Origin: Clostridiales bacterium
GTDB lineage: Bacteria > Bacillota > Clostridia > Oscillospirales > Oscillospiraceae
DNA: 35,138 bases
Reading direction: 5' to 3'
Assembly: GCA_021201475.1 (NCBI GenBank)
Contig: JAJQEV010000033.1
Location: forward strand, 8,638 to 43,775
Each line of letters starts with the position of its first letter. Positions within the stretch are counted from its first letter, which is position 1. Of the stretch, positions 15,821-21,716 are shown one piece after another. A program made the position numbers and the translations under genes. A model generated the notes under the pieces. It did not search any database. It had not been told where the DNA came from and was given only the letters and a program-made list of their open reading frames with translations.

Positions 15821-16369
15821 ATGGAGGACGAAGCCATCATCGCGTTATACTGGGCCCGGTCGGAGGAAGCCATCTCCGAGACCGACCGGAAATATGGCCG
15901 CCTGCTGGCCCAGGTGGCCCGGAACATCCTGCAAAACCGGCAGGACGTGGAAGAGTGCGTCAACGACAGCTACCTGGGGGCCTGGAACGCCATGCCGCCC
16001 CAGCGCCCTACCCTGCTGCGGAGCTTCCTCTGCCGCATCACCCGGAATCTGGCGCTTGACCGGTCGGATTACCACCACGCCGCCAGGCGCAGCGTCAGCT
16101 GCACCGCTTCCCTGGAGGAGCTTGACCGGCTGGGGGACGGTCGGGAGAGCGTGGAGGAGGAAGTGCTGCTGGCCCAGCTGATGAACGACTTTCTGGCCGG
16201 GCTAAAGCCAGAGCAGCGGGTGATTTTCCTGCGGCGGTACTGGTTCTTCCAGCCGGTGGGGGAAATTGCCCGGTTCCTGGGCTGGACGGAGAACCGGGTC
16301 AGCGCCAGCCTTTCCCGCACCCGCAGGAAGCTGCGGGACTACCTGGAACAGGAGGGATACACGCTATGA
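15821..16369 (+). CDS. Sigma-70 family (ECF-like) RNA polymerase sigma factor
   Basis: The product is 182 residues. Region 2 spans about 20-85 (YGRLLAQVARNILQNRQDVEECVNDSYLGAW and LRSFLCRITRNLALD). Region 4 spans about 125-178 (LKPEQRVIFLRRYWFFQPVGEIARFLGWTENRVSASLSRTRRKLRDYL), with the expected helix-turn-helix. No region 3 is present, as in ECF sigma factors. It starts at ATG 15821 after AAAGGAGGT, an excellent ribosome site. It overlaps the next gene by 4 bp (ATGA), the common arrangement for a sigma factor and its membrane anti-sigma partner. Its stimulus and target promoters are unknown. Confidence 0.9.
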   Translation: MEDEAIIALYWARSEEAISETDRKYGRLLAQVARNILQNRQDVEECVNDSYLGAWNAMPPQRPTLLRSFLCRITRNLALDRSDYHHAARRSVSCTASLEELDRLGDGRESVEEEVLLAQLMNDFLAGLKPEQRVIFLRRYWFFQPVGEIARFLGWTENRVSASLSRTRRKLRDYLEQEGYTL

Positions 16370-17802
16370 ATCAGAAGGACATACGCAGGATGCTGGCCCT
16401 GGTGGACGACCGGTATCTGGACGAGGCCCAGGACTGGCGGCCCCAGCGCCACCGGTGGCCCCGGTGGGTGGCCCTGGCCGCCTGCCTGTGCCTGGTTGTG
16501 GGGCTGGGGGGATTTGCCCTCTCCCAGTGGCGCGTGGGCAGCACCAACAGCACTGGCGACCTTGACAGTTCCGGCAGCGCCCCCACCAGCTTTAGCAGCT
16601 ACGCCGGGCCAGTCCTCCAGCTGACGTTGGGGGAGGAAACTGACGCTGTCGCCGCTCGGCGGCAGCTGACCTACAGCCTGACGCCGGGCATCTGGCGGCA
16701 GGACCTGGAGGTGGTGGACGGCTACAGCCTGACCAACGCCTCGGAGGAGGACGTGACCCTGACGGTGTACTACCCCTTCGTCGGCACTCTGGGCGACCTG
16801 GCCACTCCCTCCCTGACCCTGGACGGGGAGGAGCTGGCGGAGAACAGCCTGCTGGCCGGGGCGGTGATTTGGCATCAGGGGTCGGAGGGCGACTTGGGCG
16901 GCAATTACGCCTCGGACTGGGAGGACTATCAGGCCGCTCTGGAGGACGGCAGCTATCTGGCTCAGGCTATCGCCGGAGTGGGGGAGCTGACCGACACGGT
17001 GACGGTCTACTGGCTGCAAAACGCGGACTGCTCCGCTGCGGAGGGGGAGAACCCCACCCTCCAGTTCTCCGCCGCCATTGACCCGGAGGCCACCGCCTGC
17101 TTCTCCTACGGCATGAACGGCAGCCAGTGGGACAACGAAACCGGCATCTTTGGCTCCAGCTTCTCCGTGGACGAGGAGGACTTTGAAAGCGACAATCTCC
17201 ACTGCGTCATCCTCTGGGGGGAGGACGTGACGGACTACACCCTCCAGGGCTACGAGAACGGGGGCTGCTACGAGGGCATGGAGACGGAAGTCACCGCCAC
17301 CGTCCTCCGGGAGGAGACCACCTGGGCCGAGCTGCTCCCCCGACTGCTGGAGGACTATTTCAGCCGGAACCCGCTGGAGGGCGGGGCCTCGGAAGAATTG
17401 GTGGCGGAGGCTACCGCACAGTGGATCGCGGAGAACCGCTGGGCAGTGGGGATGCTGGACTACGACGGCATAAGCGAGATACTCAACGGAGCCCGGGTGT
17501 TCTGGCTGGAGGCGGAGGTCACGATTCCCGCCGGGGAGACGGTGACGCTGGAGGCCCACCTGACCCAGACCGCCAGCTACAACTACGCGGACTACTCCGA
17601 CAGCCTCCTGGGCTATGACCTGCTGCTGGAGGCGGGCAGCAATCTCACCGTCACTGAAACCGCCGTCACCCTGGCCACCCCATACGGTACCCAGGATTGG
17701 GACATTTACGCCCAGAATTACGGCTTCGACCTGGAGAATGGCGTCTCCACCGTCACCCTGGATGGGGAAGAAGTTCACTACTATCTGGAATTGAATCCGT
17801 AA
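16366..17802 (+). CDS. Membrane-anchored protein, probable anti-sigma/sensor partner of unknown family
   Basis: The product is 478 residues. A short cytoplasmic N terminus (1-31, MNQKDIRRMLALVDDRYLDEA...) is followed by one transmembrane helix (about 33-53, WVALAACLCLVVGLGGFAL). A large acidic extracellular region of about 425 residues follows. The ectodomain is rich in beta-strand-like alternation and contains DLEVVDGYSLTNASEEDVTLTVYYPF and a later IPAGETVTLEAHLTQ, both suggestive of Ig-like folds; I do not recognise the family. Overlap with the sigma gene (ATG at 16366 inside its stop) and the N-terminal cytoplasmic tail fit an anti-sigma factor whose ectodomain senses an envelope signal. 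This is inference from organisation: the cytoplasmic part is short and lacks a clear zinc-binding anti-sigma motif. Confidence 0.7.
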   Translation: MNQKDIRRMLALVDDRYLDEAQDWRPQRHRWPRWVALAACLCLVVGLGGFALSQWRVGSTNSTGDLDSSGSAPTSFSSYAGPVLQLTLGEETDAVAARRQLTYSLTPGIWRQDLEVVDGYSLTNASEEDVTLTVYYPFVGTLGDLATPSLTLDGEELAENSLLAGAVIWHQGSEGDLGGNYASDWEDYQAALEDGSYLAQAIAGVGELTDTVTVYWLQNADCSAAEGENPTLQFSAAIDPEATACFSYGMNGSQWDNETGIFGSSFSVDEEDFESDNLHCVILWGEDVTDYTLQGYENGGCYEGMETEVTATVLREETTWAELLPRLLEDYFSRNPLEGGASEELVAEATAQWIAENRWAVGMLDYDGISEILNGARVFWLEAEVTIPAGETVTLEAHLTQTASYNYADYSDSLLGYDLLLEAGSNLTVTETAVTLATPYGTQDWDIYAQNYGFDLENGVSTVTLDGEEVHYYLELNP

Positions 17803-17806
17803 AAAT

Positions 17807-17855
17807 AACACGCTGTTATAGAGAGCCTGACGGTTCTTTGTAGCAGCGTGTTTTC
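17807..17855 (+). terminator. Terminator after sigma/anti-sigma operon
   Basis: AACACGCTG (17807-17815) pairs with CAGCGTGTT (17844-17852), followed by TTCGTT. The loop is 28 nt, so strength is moderate. Confidence 0.6.
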
Positions 17856-17955
17856 GTTGCCTCGCCCACATCAGCCTGAAAAAAGCGTCTGTTCCGCCCA
17901 CTGTGGGTTACGTTGCCTGACGCCGCAAAAATTTAAAAAAGATTTAATTTTTATC

Positions 17956-17987
17956 TTGACAAATTCCTTGCGGGGGGGGGGTATTAT
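17956..17987 (+). promoter_or_regulatory. Promoter with a G10 tract in the spacer (phase-variation candidate)
   Basis: Consensus TTGACA lies at 17956-17961 and TATTAT (5 of 6) at 17982-17987. The 20-bp spacer contains ten consecutive G residues (17972-17981). The optimal spacer is about 17 bp, so loss of two or three G would restore a strong promoter and the present length should be weak. It drives the zinc-ribbon/lipoprotein cassette, whose first ATG is at 18036. Confidence 0.6.
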
Positions 17988-18035
17988 GATAGTGGCATTT
18001 ATTCAATGCACGATAAATATACGGAGGGGTAAACG

Positions 18036-18854
18036 ATGTTTTGTTCGAAGTGTGGGGCGCAGAACGACGACGGCGCGCGGTTTTGCGTAAAATGCGGCAA
18101 TGACCTTTTTTCTGCCAACGGGGGCGATGCCAATGCCGGAGTTGCAAATCAGAACCAGGGCGCTGCCTTCAACGGCGCGGGTTTGAAGTATACTCCCGTT
18201 GTAGGGACAGATGGAATTACCCGCAACGTTTCGGTAAAATGGTCGCCTGAGGAGTTTGACAGGATGAATCCGGCACAGCTCATTCAGGCTTTGACGGAAA
18301 TATTTCCCGTTATTGATGAGTTGACCAGTCTCGTCGATAACCAAATAAACCTTGAAAACGAATGCAAGAAGCTTGAAGCCATTAAACCAAAGGATACACC
18401 AAAATTAGCGGCAAATGTCATACTTCTCTTGGCAGCAGTGATTCTTTGCTTTGTTATAGGTTGGTTTGGCATTTTTTTGGTGATAGGTGCTCTCGTGTCT
18501 TTTGCTGCTTCTATGCTTCCAGACGCAGGAAGAAAAAAAGCACATCAGAATCGCTACGACACCACCTGCAAAGAGTTGGATGAGGCAAAACGGCGTGTGA
18601 ATGATTATATAGATCAGAATGCTCTGATTATACGGAGCGCTCACGCCGTTCTTCCTGATTATTGTTACGATGAGAATGCACTCTCGCACATATTAACATC
18701 CCTTAGAAATTATAGAGCAACATCCCTTGAAGAGGCATTGAATTTGTTTATAACCGACAAGAACGCAATGGAACAGCATCGACAGTTGCAAGGCCGGATT
18801 CATGCAATCGAATTGGCTGCGGAAAACGCCAGCAGGGCCGCAACAAATTCCTAA
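18036..18854 (+). CDS. Zinc-ribbon membrane protein, function unknown
   Basis: The product is 272 residues. The N-terminal zinc ribbon uses C3-x2-C6 and C17-x2-C20 (MFCSKCGAQN...RFCVKCG). A Gly/Asn/Ala linker (about 25-50) leads to a helical region. A hydrophobic stretch at about 124-160, probably two membrane helices, is followed by a charged, coiled-coil-like C-terminal half. SHILTSLRNYRATSLEEALNLF near the end is a pattern I have seen in other Firmicute zinc-ribbon proteins of unknown role. ACGGAGGGG at about 18020-18028 provides the ribosome site for ATG 18036. Base composition is visibly more AT-rich than the flanking genes, suggesting later acquisition. First gene of the cassette under the G-tract promoter. 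Confidence 0.8.
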   Translation: MFCSKCGAQNDDGARFCVKCGNDLFSANGGDANAGVANQNQGAAFNGAGLKYTPVVGTDGITRNVSVKWSPEEFDRMNPAQLIQALTEIFPVIDELTSLVDNQINLENECKKLEAIKPKDTPKLAANVILLLAAVILCFVIGWFGIFLVIGALVSFAASMLPDAGRKKAHQNRYDTTCKELDEAKRRVNDYIDQNALIIRSAHAVLPDYCYDENALSHILTSLRNYRATSLEEALNLFITDKNAMEQHRQLQGRIHAIELAAENASRAATNS

Positions 18855-18986
18855 TGCAGCAATTTAAGGAACCGCTAAACCAGCTTGGCCGATTGTGCTG
18901 AAAAGTTAATTTCAACAGAGCTGTAAACAATTCCGCAGGAGGTCGGCTGTCACCACAACAAATCACGTTACAAAGGAGAAATCAAT

Positions 18987-19478
18987 ATGTTTTGTACAAA
19001 TTGTGGAACGCAAAATCCAGATGAAGCACGCTTTTGCTCTGGTTGCGGATGCGACCTGCACCCGGACTGGGCGGCGAGAACGCAGCCTGCAAAGGGCGAG
19101 GCTCCCAGGTCCAACGGGCAGGAGAAGAAGGTAGAAATTAAAAGCCCGGCGTCCGCCAAAAGCGGAATGACACTGGGGATTCTTGCGATGGTTCTGGCGG
19201 GAGTTTCGATGCCGATTTGCATCTTTGCTCCGAGCATTTGCAGAATGTCCGGGCCGCTGTCCATCATTTTGAGTGTTCTGGCAATCGTGCTCAGCGCAAA
19301 GGGTTTAAACCGGGTCAACCGGAACTATCGGGAAATCGCCATGCAGAACATTGTCTACCGAGATGAATACAACAGTGCAAAATACGCTTCCTACGTCGGT
19401 ATCATCTGCGGCATCATTGCAATTTTCTTCGGCCTCATCGTGACGTATGGCAGCATAAGAGCAATGTCATGGTATTAA
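18987..19478 (+). CDS. Zinc-ribbon multi-pass membrane protein (DUF4190-like)
   Basis: The product is 163 residues. The zinc ribbon has the same cysteine spacing as the upstream gene (C3, C6, C17, C20 in MFCTNCGTQN...RFCSGCG). Three hydrophobic segments follow: about 61-85 (MTLGILAMVLAGVSMPICIF), 89-107 (PLSIILSVLAIVLSAKG) and 133-157 (YASYVGIICGIIAIFFGLIV). The small helical membrane pair resembles DUF4190-type proteins. A 132-bp gap separates it from the first zinc-ribbon gene, and AAAGGAGAA precedes ATG 18987. Function unknown; shared ribbon architecture suggests that the two proteins act together. Confidence 0.8.
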   Translation: MFCTNCGTQNPDEARFCSGCGCDLHPDWAARTQPAKGEAPRSNGQEKKVEIKSPASAKSGMTLGILAMVLAGVSMPICIFAPSICRMSGPLSIILSVLAIVLSAKGLNRVNRNYREIAMQNIVYRDEYNSAKYASYVGIICGIIAIFFGLIVTYGSIRAMSWY

Positions 19479-19541
19479 GTGCGTTCCCGCAGCGGGCGAC
19501 GCCTGGCACAGGAACTGGAAAGAGAGAATCAGGAGGTTATG

Positions 19542-20897
19542 ATGCGTAAGAAATTAGTTACCATGCTGCTCATGGCCGCTGTGATGGTTTTTGCTGTCAG
19601 CGGCTGCGGCAGCTCCAGCGGCAGCGAAACAGGCGGCACAGACGGCGAAAACGGCAGCACACAGACCGCGACGAGCGCAAACGATGCGGTTGCGGAGTTT
19701 GAAACCTGCGCAAAGGCCGGAGAATATCGGGATGCGATAGACCTCTATACTTCCGAAATTGAAGGCAGCACAAGCACCGAAAGTGAAGTGGTCAGCTTTC
19801 TTGAGGACTGGATGGTCGAAATCGCCGAAAATATCTGTGATGCGGACGGCGTCATCTCCTCCGACTATAAGGATGAGATGTATACGCTGCTGAAAATCAA
19901 TGATTCTCTGGCGCTGATCGATACCGGTGACCTGCTCCTGTTACAGTCTGGCATTGAAGACTATAACGAGGGCGATTACGAGAGCGCGGTGGTCAGTCTG
20001 AACGATATTGCAGACGACGACATCGACACAGATGCCGTTGAAACGTTCAAAGCAGTGGTCAGCGAAAAATATGTGGAGAGCGTTGTGCAGAAGGCGTGGG
20101 CCTATATTGACGCCGGAGAATATACCTCTGCGGTGGATTTGCTGAACGCAATGCAGTATACCGATGATACCGTTGAGGAAATCATGACGGAGGCCATGAC
20201 GGCCCGCTTTGAGGAGGCAATGGAAGCCGAAACGGATTTTGCGACCATAATGAGTCTGTACGAGGCCGCGTTGGATAACCGGTATATCGAGGTCAGCGCG
20301 GATATGACCGAGGTTTACGCCGCCGCGGAAACCAGCTACCGCGAGGGTGTGATTGCATCGGTGGACGACTATGTGGACAGCTTCGCATTTGGCTCTGCGC
20401 TGACGCTTCTTGACGAGGCGCTGACCGTTCTGGAAAACGACGATCAGCTTCTGGCCTGCAAGACGGAGACGGAGGAAGCCCAGGAATATTATCTGTTGCA
20501 TACAACCGTTGTGGATTTAACGGATTTGACACCGTATGATGAGTCTAATACAAGTACCGCTGGAGCCGATGATAAGGATACGGATGCGTTTGGCAACGTG
20601 TATCAGACAAATGTTCATGGTGATTGGAGTGATGGAGGATACGCTACATACAGGCTAGATGGCGTTTACGTAGAATTTACCGGCACAGTATATTCGAGAA
20701 TTGATAAGAGCAGAACTGTAAGCATTTATGGAGACGGCGTCCTTCTCTATGAAGCAACCCTTACGAAAACAGACGATCCGGTTCCGTTTTCTGTTGATAT
20801 AACAGGCGTAAGAGACTTAAAGATAGTCTTTGACGGTCAAAAAATTTATATTGGAAACCCGACCTTAACCCCCGATGGGAATGGCAGCATGGAGTAA
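19542..20897 (+). CDS. Lipoprotein with helical repeats and C-terminal NPCBM-like domain
   Basis: The product is 451 residues. The signal peptide ends in a lipobox (AVSGC, C22), so the mature protein is a lipid-anchored surface protein. A Ser/Gly-rich spacer (23-50) is followed by about 290 residues of TPR-like helices with repeated EY/SAVD-type units (GEYRDAIDLYTSEI, GDYESAVVSLNDI, GEYTSAVDLLNAM). Residues about 348-451 (AFGNVYQTNV...YRLDGVYVEFTGTVY...VDITGVRDLKIVF) match the NPCBM-type galactose-binding-like fold as I recall it. ATG 19542 is chosen for its 5-bp spacing from AGGAGG (19531-19536); an in-frame GTG at 19479 would bury the signal peptide. It follows the second zinc-ribbon gene by 63 bp and likely forms one operon with it. 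Confidence 0.8.
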   Translation: MRKKLVTMLLMAAVMVFAVSGCGSSSGSETGGTDGENGSTQTATSANDAVAEFETCAKAGEYRDAIDLYTSEIEGSTSTESEVVSFLEDWMVEIAENICDADGVISSDYKDEMYTLLKINDSLALIDTGDLLLLQSGIEDYNEGDYESAVVSLNDIADDDIDTDAVETFKAVVSEKYVESVVQKAWAYIDAGEYTSAVDLLNAMQYTDDTVEEIMTEAMTARFEEAMEAETDFATIMSLYEAALDNRYIEVSADMTEVYAAAETSYREGVIASVDDYVDSFAFGSALTLLDEALTVLENDDQLLACKTETEEAQEYYLLHTTVVDLTDLTPYDESNTSTAGADDKDTDAFGNVYQTNVHGDWSDGGYATYRLDGVYVEFTGTVYSRIDKSRTVSIYGDGVLLYEATLTKTDDPVPFSVDITGVRDLKIVFDGQKIYIGNPTLTPDGNGSME

Positions 20898-20930
20898 CAC
20901 AAAATTAGTAAAATCATCCACTGAACGGGA

Positions 20931-20980
20931 AAACGCTGATGCGGCGGAGCCTCCTCCCTGCATCAGCGTTTCTCTTTTTT
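20931..20980 (+). terminator. Terminator of the zinc-ribbon/lipoprotein cassette
   Basis: AAACGCTGATGC (20931-20942) pairs with GCATCAGCGTTT (20960-20971), followed by CTCTTTTTT. The T run overlaps the stop codon of convergent truA. Confidence 0.85.
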
Positions 20981-21716
20981 AATAATCCACCTTCATCAAA
21001 CACAGCCCCTCCGGCGGGGCGGTTGGCCCGGCCTGGCTGCGGTCCTTCGCTGCCAGGATCTCCCCCACCCGCTCCGGGGGCAGGTTGCCATAGCCCACCT
21101 CCAGCAGGGTACCCACCATGATGCGTACCATATGCTGGAGGAATCCGCTGCCGTGGACGGTGACGGTAAGGTAGCCCCCGGTTCGGACGATGTCAATGGC
21201 ATCCACCCGGCGGACGGTAGACTTCTTCATGTGGGGGTTGCCGCAAAAGCTCTTGAAATCGTGTTCCCCCACCAGGTAAGCCGCCCCCTGGCGCATGGCA
21301 TCCACGTCCGCGGACTGTTCCAGCCGGGTGACGTAGCGCCGGTCAAAAATCGGCTTCATGGGGCCGTCATAGCAGGTGTAGCGATAGGTCTTGCCCACAG
21401 CCTTATAGCGGGCGTGGAACCGCGCCGCCGCCGGGCGCACCTCCCGCACGCCGATGTCCTCCGGCAGGTAGCGGTTCAGGTAGTCCCGCACCTCCTCCGG
21501 CATCAGCGCCGTGTCCAGCCAGACGTTGGCCACCATGCCTCTGGCGTGAACCCCGGCGTCCGTCCGGCCTGCGCCGATGACCTCCACCGGCTCCCCCACC
21601 AGCCGCGCCAGCACCCCCTCCAGCTTGCCCTGAATGGTGGCCTGGCCCGGCTTATCCTCCCAGCCGTGGTAGCGGGTGCCGTCATAGAGGATGGTCAGCT
21701 TGTAATTTTGCCGCAT
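20979..21716 (-). CDS. truA: tRNA pseudouridine(38-40) synthase TruA
   Basis: The product is 245 residues, a standard TruA length. It isomerises uridines 38-40 in the tRNA anticodon stem. The catalytic aspartate lies in AGRTDAGVHARG. Other family blocks are YDGTRYHGW at the N terminus and GSGFLQHMVRIMVGTLLEVG near the C terminus. The start at 21716 (MRQNYKLT) has AGGAGC 6 bp upstream, and earlier in-frame codons have no ribosome site. The C terminus converges on the lipoprotein terminator. It is divergent from rmuC, with a 98-bp shared promoter region containing TATAAT (21750-21755). Confidence 0.93.
   Translation of the reverse strand: MRQNYKLTILYDGTRYHGWEDKPGQATIQGKLEGVLARLVGEPVEVIGAGRTDAGVHARGMVANVWLDTALMPEEVRDYLNRYLPEDIGVREVRPAAARFHARYKAVGKTYRYTCYDGPMKPIFDRRYVTRLEQSADVDAMRQGAAYLVGEHDFKSFCGNPHMKKSTVRRVDAIDIVRTGGYLTVTVHGSGFLQHMVRIMVGTLLEVGYGNLPPERVGEILAAKDRSQAGPTAPPEGLCLMKVDY

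Follow-up and report, generated by a model that had tools for sequence, protein, structure and literature searches.

A candidate poly-G spacer-length switch in the promoter of a three-gene envelope operon of a Clostridiales bacterium

The stretch of DNA analysed here (the window; 35,138 nucleotides of a Clostridiales bacterium, contig JAJQEV010000033.1) carries on its forward strand a three-gene envelope operon at 18036-20897. The first gene (18036-18854) specifies a predicted zinc-ribbon membrane protein of 272 amino acids, with PF13240 (Zn_Ribbon_1) at 2-24 and, by eye, a hydrophobic stretch at approximately 124-160; its Shine-Dalgarno sequence, GGAGGGG, was re-read by script at 18023-18029, ahead of the ATG at 18036. 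A second zinc-ribbon protein (163 amino acids; 18987-19478; PF13240 (Zn_Ribbon_1) at 2-24) possesses hydrophobic segments, and the third product (451 amino acids; 19542-20897) is a lipoprotein with an NPCBM domain (PF08305, E 6e-6) and a lipobox, VSGC, recognized by eye. The first-pass annotation had described the controlled genes as encoding zinc-ribbon membrane proteins and a surface lipoprotein; by sequence the two zinc-ribbon products look like membrane proteins, which may or may not face outward, and the third is a lipoprotein. The operon is followed on the same strand by a hairpin and T run (20927-20974; -32.5 kcal/mol, z -7.0) which is probably its terminator and was missed by a simple scanner. 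Ahead of it lies another forward-strand hairpin with a T-rich tail (17808-17851; 20 pairs, loop of 4; -32.8 kcal/mol, z -8.3), which is on the scanner list and probably terminates the upstream gene.

Further upstream is a sigma factor gene (15821-16369; regions 2 and 4), which overlaps the start of the next gene, ending at 17802. The product of the latter has a hydrophobic N-terminal segment and gave no Pfam match at E 0.01; it is possibly an anti-sigma factor.

Between the upstream terminator and the first gene, on the forward strand, are a -35 hexamer TTGACA (17956-17961), a 20-bp spacer consisting of AATTCCTTGC followed by ten G residues (17962-17981), and a -10 hexamer TATTAT (17982-17987). 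The uninterrupted G10 tract (17972-17981) adjoins the -10 hexamer and is the proposed site of slippage. All of these elements had been described previously, and re-reading by script returned exactly the same coordinates. A homopolymer is thus present between the -35 and -10 hexamers, the promoter itself being judged by sequence and conservation rather than by a mapped transcript. It is absent from the list of our promoter scanner because that program takes spacers of 16-18 bp only. Across 17700-21050 the scanner reported four promoters (3.4 in shuffled sequences) and three terminators (3.3 in shuffled sequences), that is, no excess of either. The promoter is flanked by a single weak inverted pair (12 nt, 83%; 17947-17958 and 18009-18020, 50 nt apart), which by eye is poorer in the congener G020; an invertible promoter is therefore unlikely here.

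Within the genome to which the window belongs, 13 runs of eight or more G residues were found on both strands, where approximately 224 would be expected from the composition of the window with independent bases; the genome avoids long G runs. Five of the 13 lie at the end of a contig or close to it (one in C34, three in C51 and one in C115), and the G10 of the window is the only run of ten or more away from a contig end. A looser pattern (TTGAC-N4-16-G6-N0-2-TANNAT) matched this genome once, at the window, and we therefore consider this a single locus here rather than a regulon.

A search of the genus (32 genomes) found the window promoter, apart from its own genome, in G020 and G002; in four others the match is limited to the tail of the upstream gene with its hairpin. 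In G020 the promoter reads TTGACA-AATTCGC-G7-TACAAT, with a spacer of 14 bp, and precedes an orthologue of the first zinc-ribbon gene. That of G002 reads TTGACA-AATTCCTGGCGTGGGGGA-TATTAT, with an 18-bp spacer in which the G tract is interrupted, and stands before a different zinc-ribbon gene. The hexamers and leader are thus conserved across the three genomes while the spacing is 20, 14 and 18 bp. With the flanks conserved, G10 in the window is matched by G7 in G020, so that tract length, which the first-pass annotation wished to see compared among relatives, differs between the two; the window's species is represented by one genome, and the comparison is one between species. Three spacer bases outside the G run also differ between G020 and the window, and slippage alone is therefore not enough to account for the difference. 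The non-G part of the G020 spacer is shorter, and its best G count would accordingly differ. Since the tract of G002 is interrupted, the switch has not been retained in every relative.

A comparison of the first-gene protein with 250 genomes of the family gave matches in 42. Apart from its own genome, alignment over most of the length was confined to G020 (in two pieces, at 73% and 65%) and, as a remote match, G306 (28%), the remaining matches being short and nearly all at the zinc ribbon. The G020 orthologue consists of two overlapping pieces (L135, G020:C124:18691-19561), pointing to a frameshift or a misassembly. Two further congeners, G008 and G016 (L288, L290), have C8 within promoter spacers of 15 and 16 bp before related lipoprotein genes, which by eye are orthologous to one another.

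The same layout was sought in other genomes, with the reversed pattern as a control. TTGACA-N6-16-G7-N0-6-TATNAT was found in 8 of 98 related genomes, including the window's own, and backwards in none (0/98; Fisher p 0.007). A second search, in which no -35 hexamer was required, covered 394 genomes of the order, a set that partly overlaps with the 98; G7 abutting TATAAT occurred at 27 sites in 15 genomes, with a backwards control of 0/394 (p 5e-5 by genome). Exact TTGACA is present 14-20 bp upstream at 19 of these 27 sites and TTGACG at two; one further site has TTGACA at 11 bp. At the remaining five no TTGAC precedes the run, and these have the look of fortuitous occurrences. A single genome, G818, contributes nine of the 27, and its sites match those of G616 (Hydrogenoanaerobacterium saccharovorans An564). 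In a sample of the class, seven G7-TATAAT sites were present in 5 of 291 genomes (-35 hexamer TTGACA in six and TTGACT in one), and the backwards control gave two sites in two genomes of the 291. Sites from one genome are not independent, and the p-values are therefore too small; nevertheless, chance seems an unlikely source of the layout. Poly-C occupied the same place in 3 of the 98 relatives, G008 and G016 among them, which is not significantly fewer than the eight with poly-G (p 0.21), and we therefore do not claim that G alone is used. The poly-C equivalent was found in 0 of 20 genomes, 18 of which had been picked for poly-G.

A wider scan, with one genome per species and the pattern TTGACA-N4-14-G8-TATNAT, returned at least 117 stretches with at least 123 sites, several of them from one genome. 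Among the 80 matches listed with titles are Clostridia and Bacilli, many from gut samples, as well as Saccharibacteria, Treponema, Streptobacillus, Helicobacter and Streptococcus; some, such as one Verrucomicrobia and one Alphaproteobacteria record, look like chance. Among the matches listed, the tract varies from 7 to 14 residues across loci and the spacer changes along with it, and the spacer measures 15-20 bp at 113 of 123 sites (chi-square p 4e-23 against a uniform distribution over 12-22). From these sequences, the distance between -35 and -10 appears to be under selection. Among the matches listed (L017-L133), in which lineages repeat, the G run is preceded by C at 75 of 122 sites, by T at 34 and by A at 13; at one of the 123 sites the spacer is all G. 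Viral contigs, in which within-species length variation was sought, yielded four stretches.

These tracts mostly precede genes for secreted or membrane proteins. Among the matches listed, 74 of 96 first ORFs encode an N-terminal signal peptide or membrane segment (27 of 123 sites being dropped because no ORF was found by rule); in two control sets, made up of ordinary promoters from the same loci, the counts are 3 of 16 and 10 of 33 (7 of 23 and 26 of 59 dropped). ORFs and signal peptides were called by simple heuristic rules, and the controls are small. For the sites from the order the corresponding figure is 18 of 22, with five of 27 dropped for want of an ORF. Zinc-ribbon-like N-termini recur by eye (L072, L122, L132, L167).

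Some genomes hold many copies. Eighteen genomes picked from the listed loci, each having at least one site, contain 138 sites by sum (31 in G604, 21 in G602, 20 in G603 and 13 in G600) and none backwards. G604, of the Bacilli (Lapin-017__bin44, a name that may point to a rabbit source), has a genome of 1.4 Mb; several of its 31 poly-G promoters (L225-L244) are situated at contig ends, where a single locus may have been counted twice. Of the 22 sites fetched from among the 31, 17 stand before members of one paralogous signal-peptide family and two before other genes, and the remaining three run off the contig. A common spacer, ATACCACCCT, is shared by 19 of the 31, followed by eye by G9 (11 sites), G10 (six) or G11 (two); among the 11 fetched sites with distinct flanks, these lengths occur five, four and two times. 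Tract-length differences of the same kind are seen in G603, G606 and G607. G602 (Streptobacillus notomytis, L245-L264) has 21 poly-G promoters, and 13 of 14 first ORFs begin with a signal peptide or membrane segment; a literature search combining Streptobacillus with phase variation gave no relevant report.

RNA polymerase prefers a spacing of approximately 17 bp, and the assembled 20-bp spacer is therefore probably weak or OFF; spacers near 17-18 bp would be strong. The expectation of the first-pass annotation, weak at ten G and strong at seven or eight, is likewise a rule-of-thumb prediction. From its sequence and its relatives, we consider it probable, with good though not complete confidence, that the G10 tract is a slipped-strand, spacer-length phase-variation element in a SigA-type promoter, of the porA and vlp kind. 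Slipped-strand mispairing during replication would add or remove G residues, shifting the distance between the hexamers one base at a time and thereby altering transcription of the operon; a tract shortened by two or three Gs would give more transcript. We infer that the tract varies among cells of the window's species, with switching as the consequence, and that the benefit would lie in a population with mixed surface proteins when phages or the immune system exert pressure. The suggestion of the first-pass annotation that this is a poly-G switch thus stands as a candidate, supported by a conserved promoter with altered spacing in congeners, an excess over the backwards control and, elsewhere, a variable tract behind an identical spacer.

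Accounts of phase variation in gut bacteria mostly concern DNA inversion, and those of homopolymer switching mostly a few Proteobacteria and mycoplasmas. The fim system of Bordetella pertussis, for example, combines poly-C with an activator. Among the closest kinds is porA of Neisseria meningitidis, which like the window has poly-G between its hexamers, and in which changes of a single base affect how a surface protein is transcribed (PMC3639595, PMC3899988, both as far as the excerpts go). In the excerpted text of the former, variants with 11G, 10G and 9G have changed expression levels, and a change from 11G to 10G alters PorA expression and allows escape from PorA antibody (PMC3639595). PorA is a Gram-negative porin, whereas the window carries a Clostridia envelope operon known here from sequence; the window tract directly abuts the -10 hexamer. 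The vlp family of Mycoplasma hyorhinis (PMC10502178, excerpt) is likewise among the closest kinds, although it uses poly-A in a gene family and the window poly-G in a single copy. Repeat tracts in promoters also control phase-variable surface structures in B. pertussis (fim) and Haemophilus influenzae (hif), by spacing in the latter (PMC3899988, excerpt); hif uses TA repeats, unlike the poly-G of the window. Invertible promoters of gut Bacteroides and Clostridioides provide stochastic control of surface or signalling genes (PMC11868660, excerpt), but do so by site-specific recombination, while the window has only the one weak inverted pair. The Clostridioides examples in the excerpt of that 2025 review operate via promoter inversion, with no poly-G promoter among them (PMC11868660), and a 2010 survey, in the portion available, concerns homopolymers within coding genes. 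It had been remarked that such switches are rarely described in gut Clostridia; consistent with this, our literature search, with subscription journals mostly outside it, gave no report of the poly-G spacer layout in Clostridia among the matches listed.

Other explanations of the tract can be weighed against this evidence. It might act as an evolutionary tuning knob, drifting between species and setting a fixed promoter strength without frequent switching within a population. The length variation documented here is indeed between species and paralogues only, and, in the excerpted part of the review, homopolymer indels of Mycobacterium tuberculosis are described as not shown to be reversible, such that they cannot be termed phase variation (PMC11868660). 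Against such slow drift, the tract persists in a genome which otherwise avoids long G runs, and tracts of this type lie mostly before secreted or membrane proteins, as contingency loci would; we regard the tuning knob as improbable, though it deserves to be kept in mind. A protein operator, for instance for a metal sensor of the CsoR/RcnR type, would account for a G-rich spacer element ahead of zinc-ribbon products and for the C directly before the tract at 75 of the 122 sites among the matches listed. Operators of the CsoR/RcnR type have their G/C tracts within inverted repeats of fixed length, whereas no inverted repeat involves the tract of the window and, among the matches listed, tract length runs from 7 to 14 with the spacer following and the products look by eye unrelated across phyla. 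An operator of any description is thus very unlikely, and the CsoR type was rejected, the G tract being part of no inverted repeat and variable in length across loci.

That the run is a chance occurrence in an ordinary fixed promoter would agree with the single site in its own genome, with the five chance-like sites among the 27 elsewhere and with the two backwards sites in 291 genomes. It is difficult to reconcile with backwards controls of 0/98 and 0/394 and with a promoter conserved while its spacing changes, and we give it hardly any credence. Scarcer still is the prospect of an assembly or sequencing artefact, whereby a shorter tract was read too long or poly-G made by the sequencer entered the assembly: the same assembly does have poly-G/C runs at contig ends (C34, C51), yet the tract in question is mid-contig within a conserved promoter, a congener has its own G7 at the same place, and the layout occurs also in a strain record (Streptobacillus notomytis AHL 370-1). 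An error of one G in the assembled tract length is possible.

Mutations in mismatch repair raise mononucleotide switching 100- to 1,000-fold, according to the available part of the source (PMC3639595). Of 16 genomes queried, 13 gave a match to MutS domain I and three (G608, G610 and G612) did not; loss of mismatch repair was therefore rejected as a general cause, and is not a rule. The only match to this domain in the window's own genome is a 477-aa protein encoded on the reverse strand (G000:C45; L285:2352-3782), in which a portion of domain I runs in frame straight into domain IV, without domain II and the greater part of domain III. Residues 48-478 of the 480-aa MutS-like frame correspond, at 96% identity, to the end of an 896-aa open frame of G020. 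Since the contig bearing this gene is only 4,251 bases long, an assembly error is possible; the deletion, if real, would probably raise slippage of G tracts.

Returning to the poly-G spacer switch, the surprise is the frequent recurrence of the layout, and its multi-copy arrays, in other, mainly gut, bacteria. We would put at about even the odds that promoters of the form TTGACA-N-G(7-14)-TATAAT constitute a widespread slippery class in host-associated Clostridia, Bacilli, Saccharibacteria and others, and that some gut species rely on them chiefly for surface variation, a single small genome carrying up to 31 copies that switch independently and mostly precede members of a paralogous surface-protein family. 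G counts at known promoters can be read from existing raw metagenome reads, so that the question is testable with present data. If true, a poly-G spacer switch across gut Clostridia and Bacilli would give many unstudied commensals a ready-made source of surface diversity against phages and antibodies.
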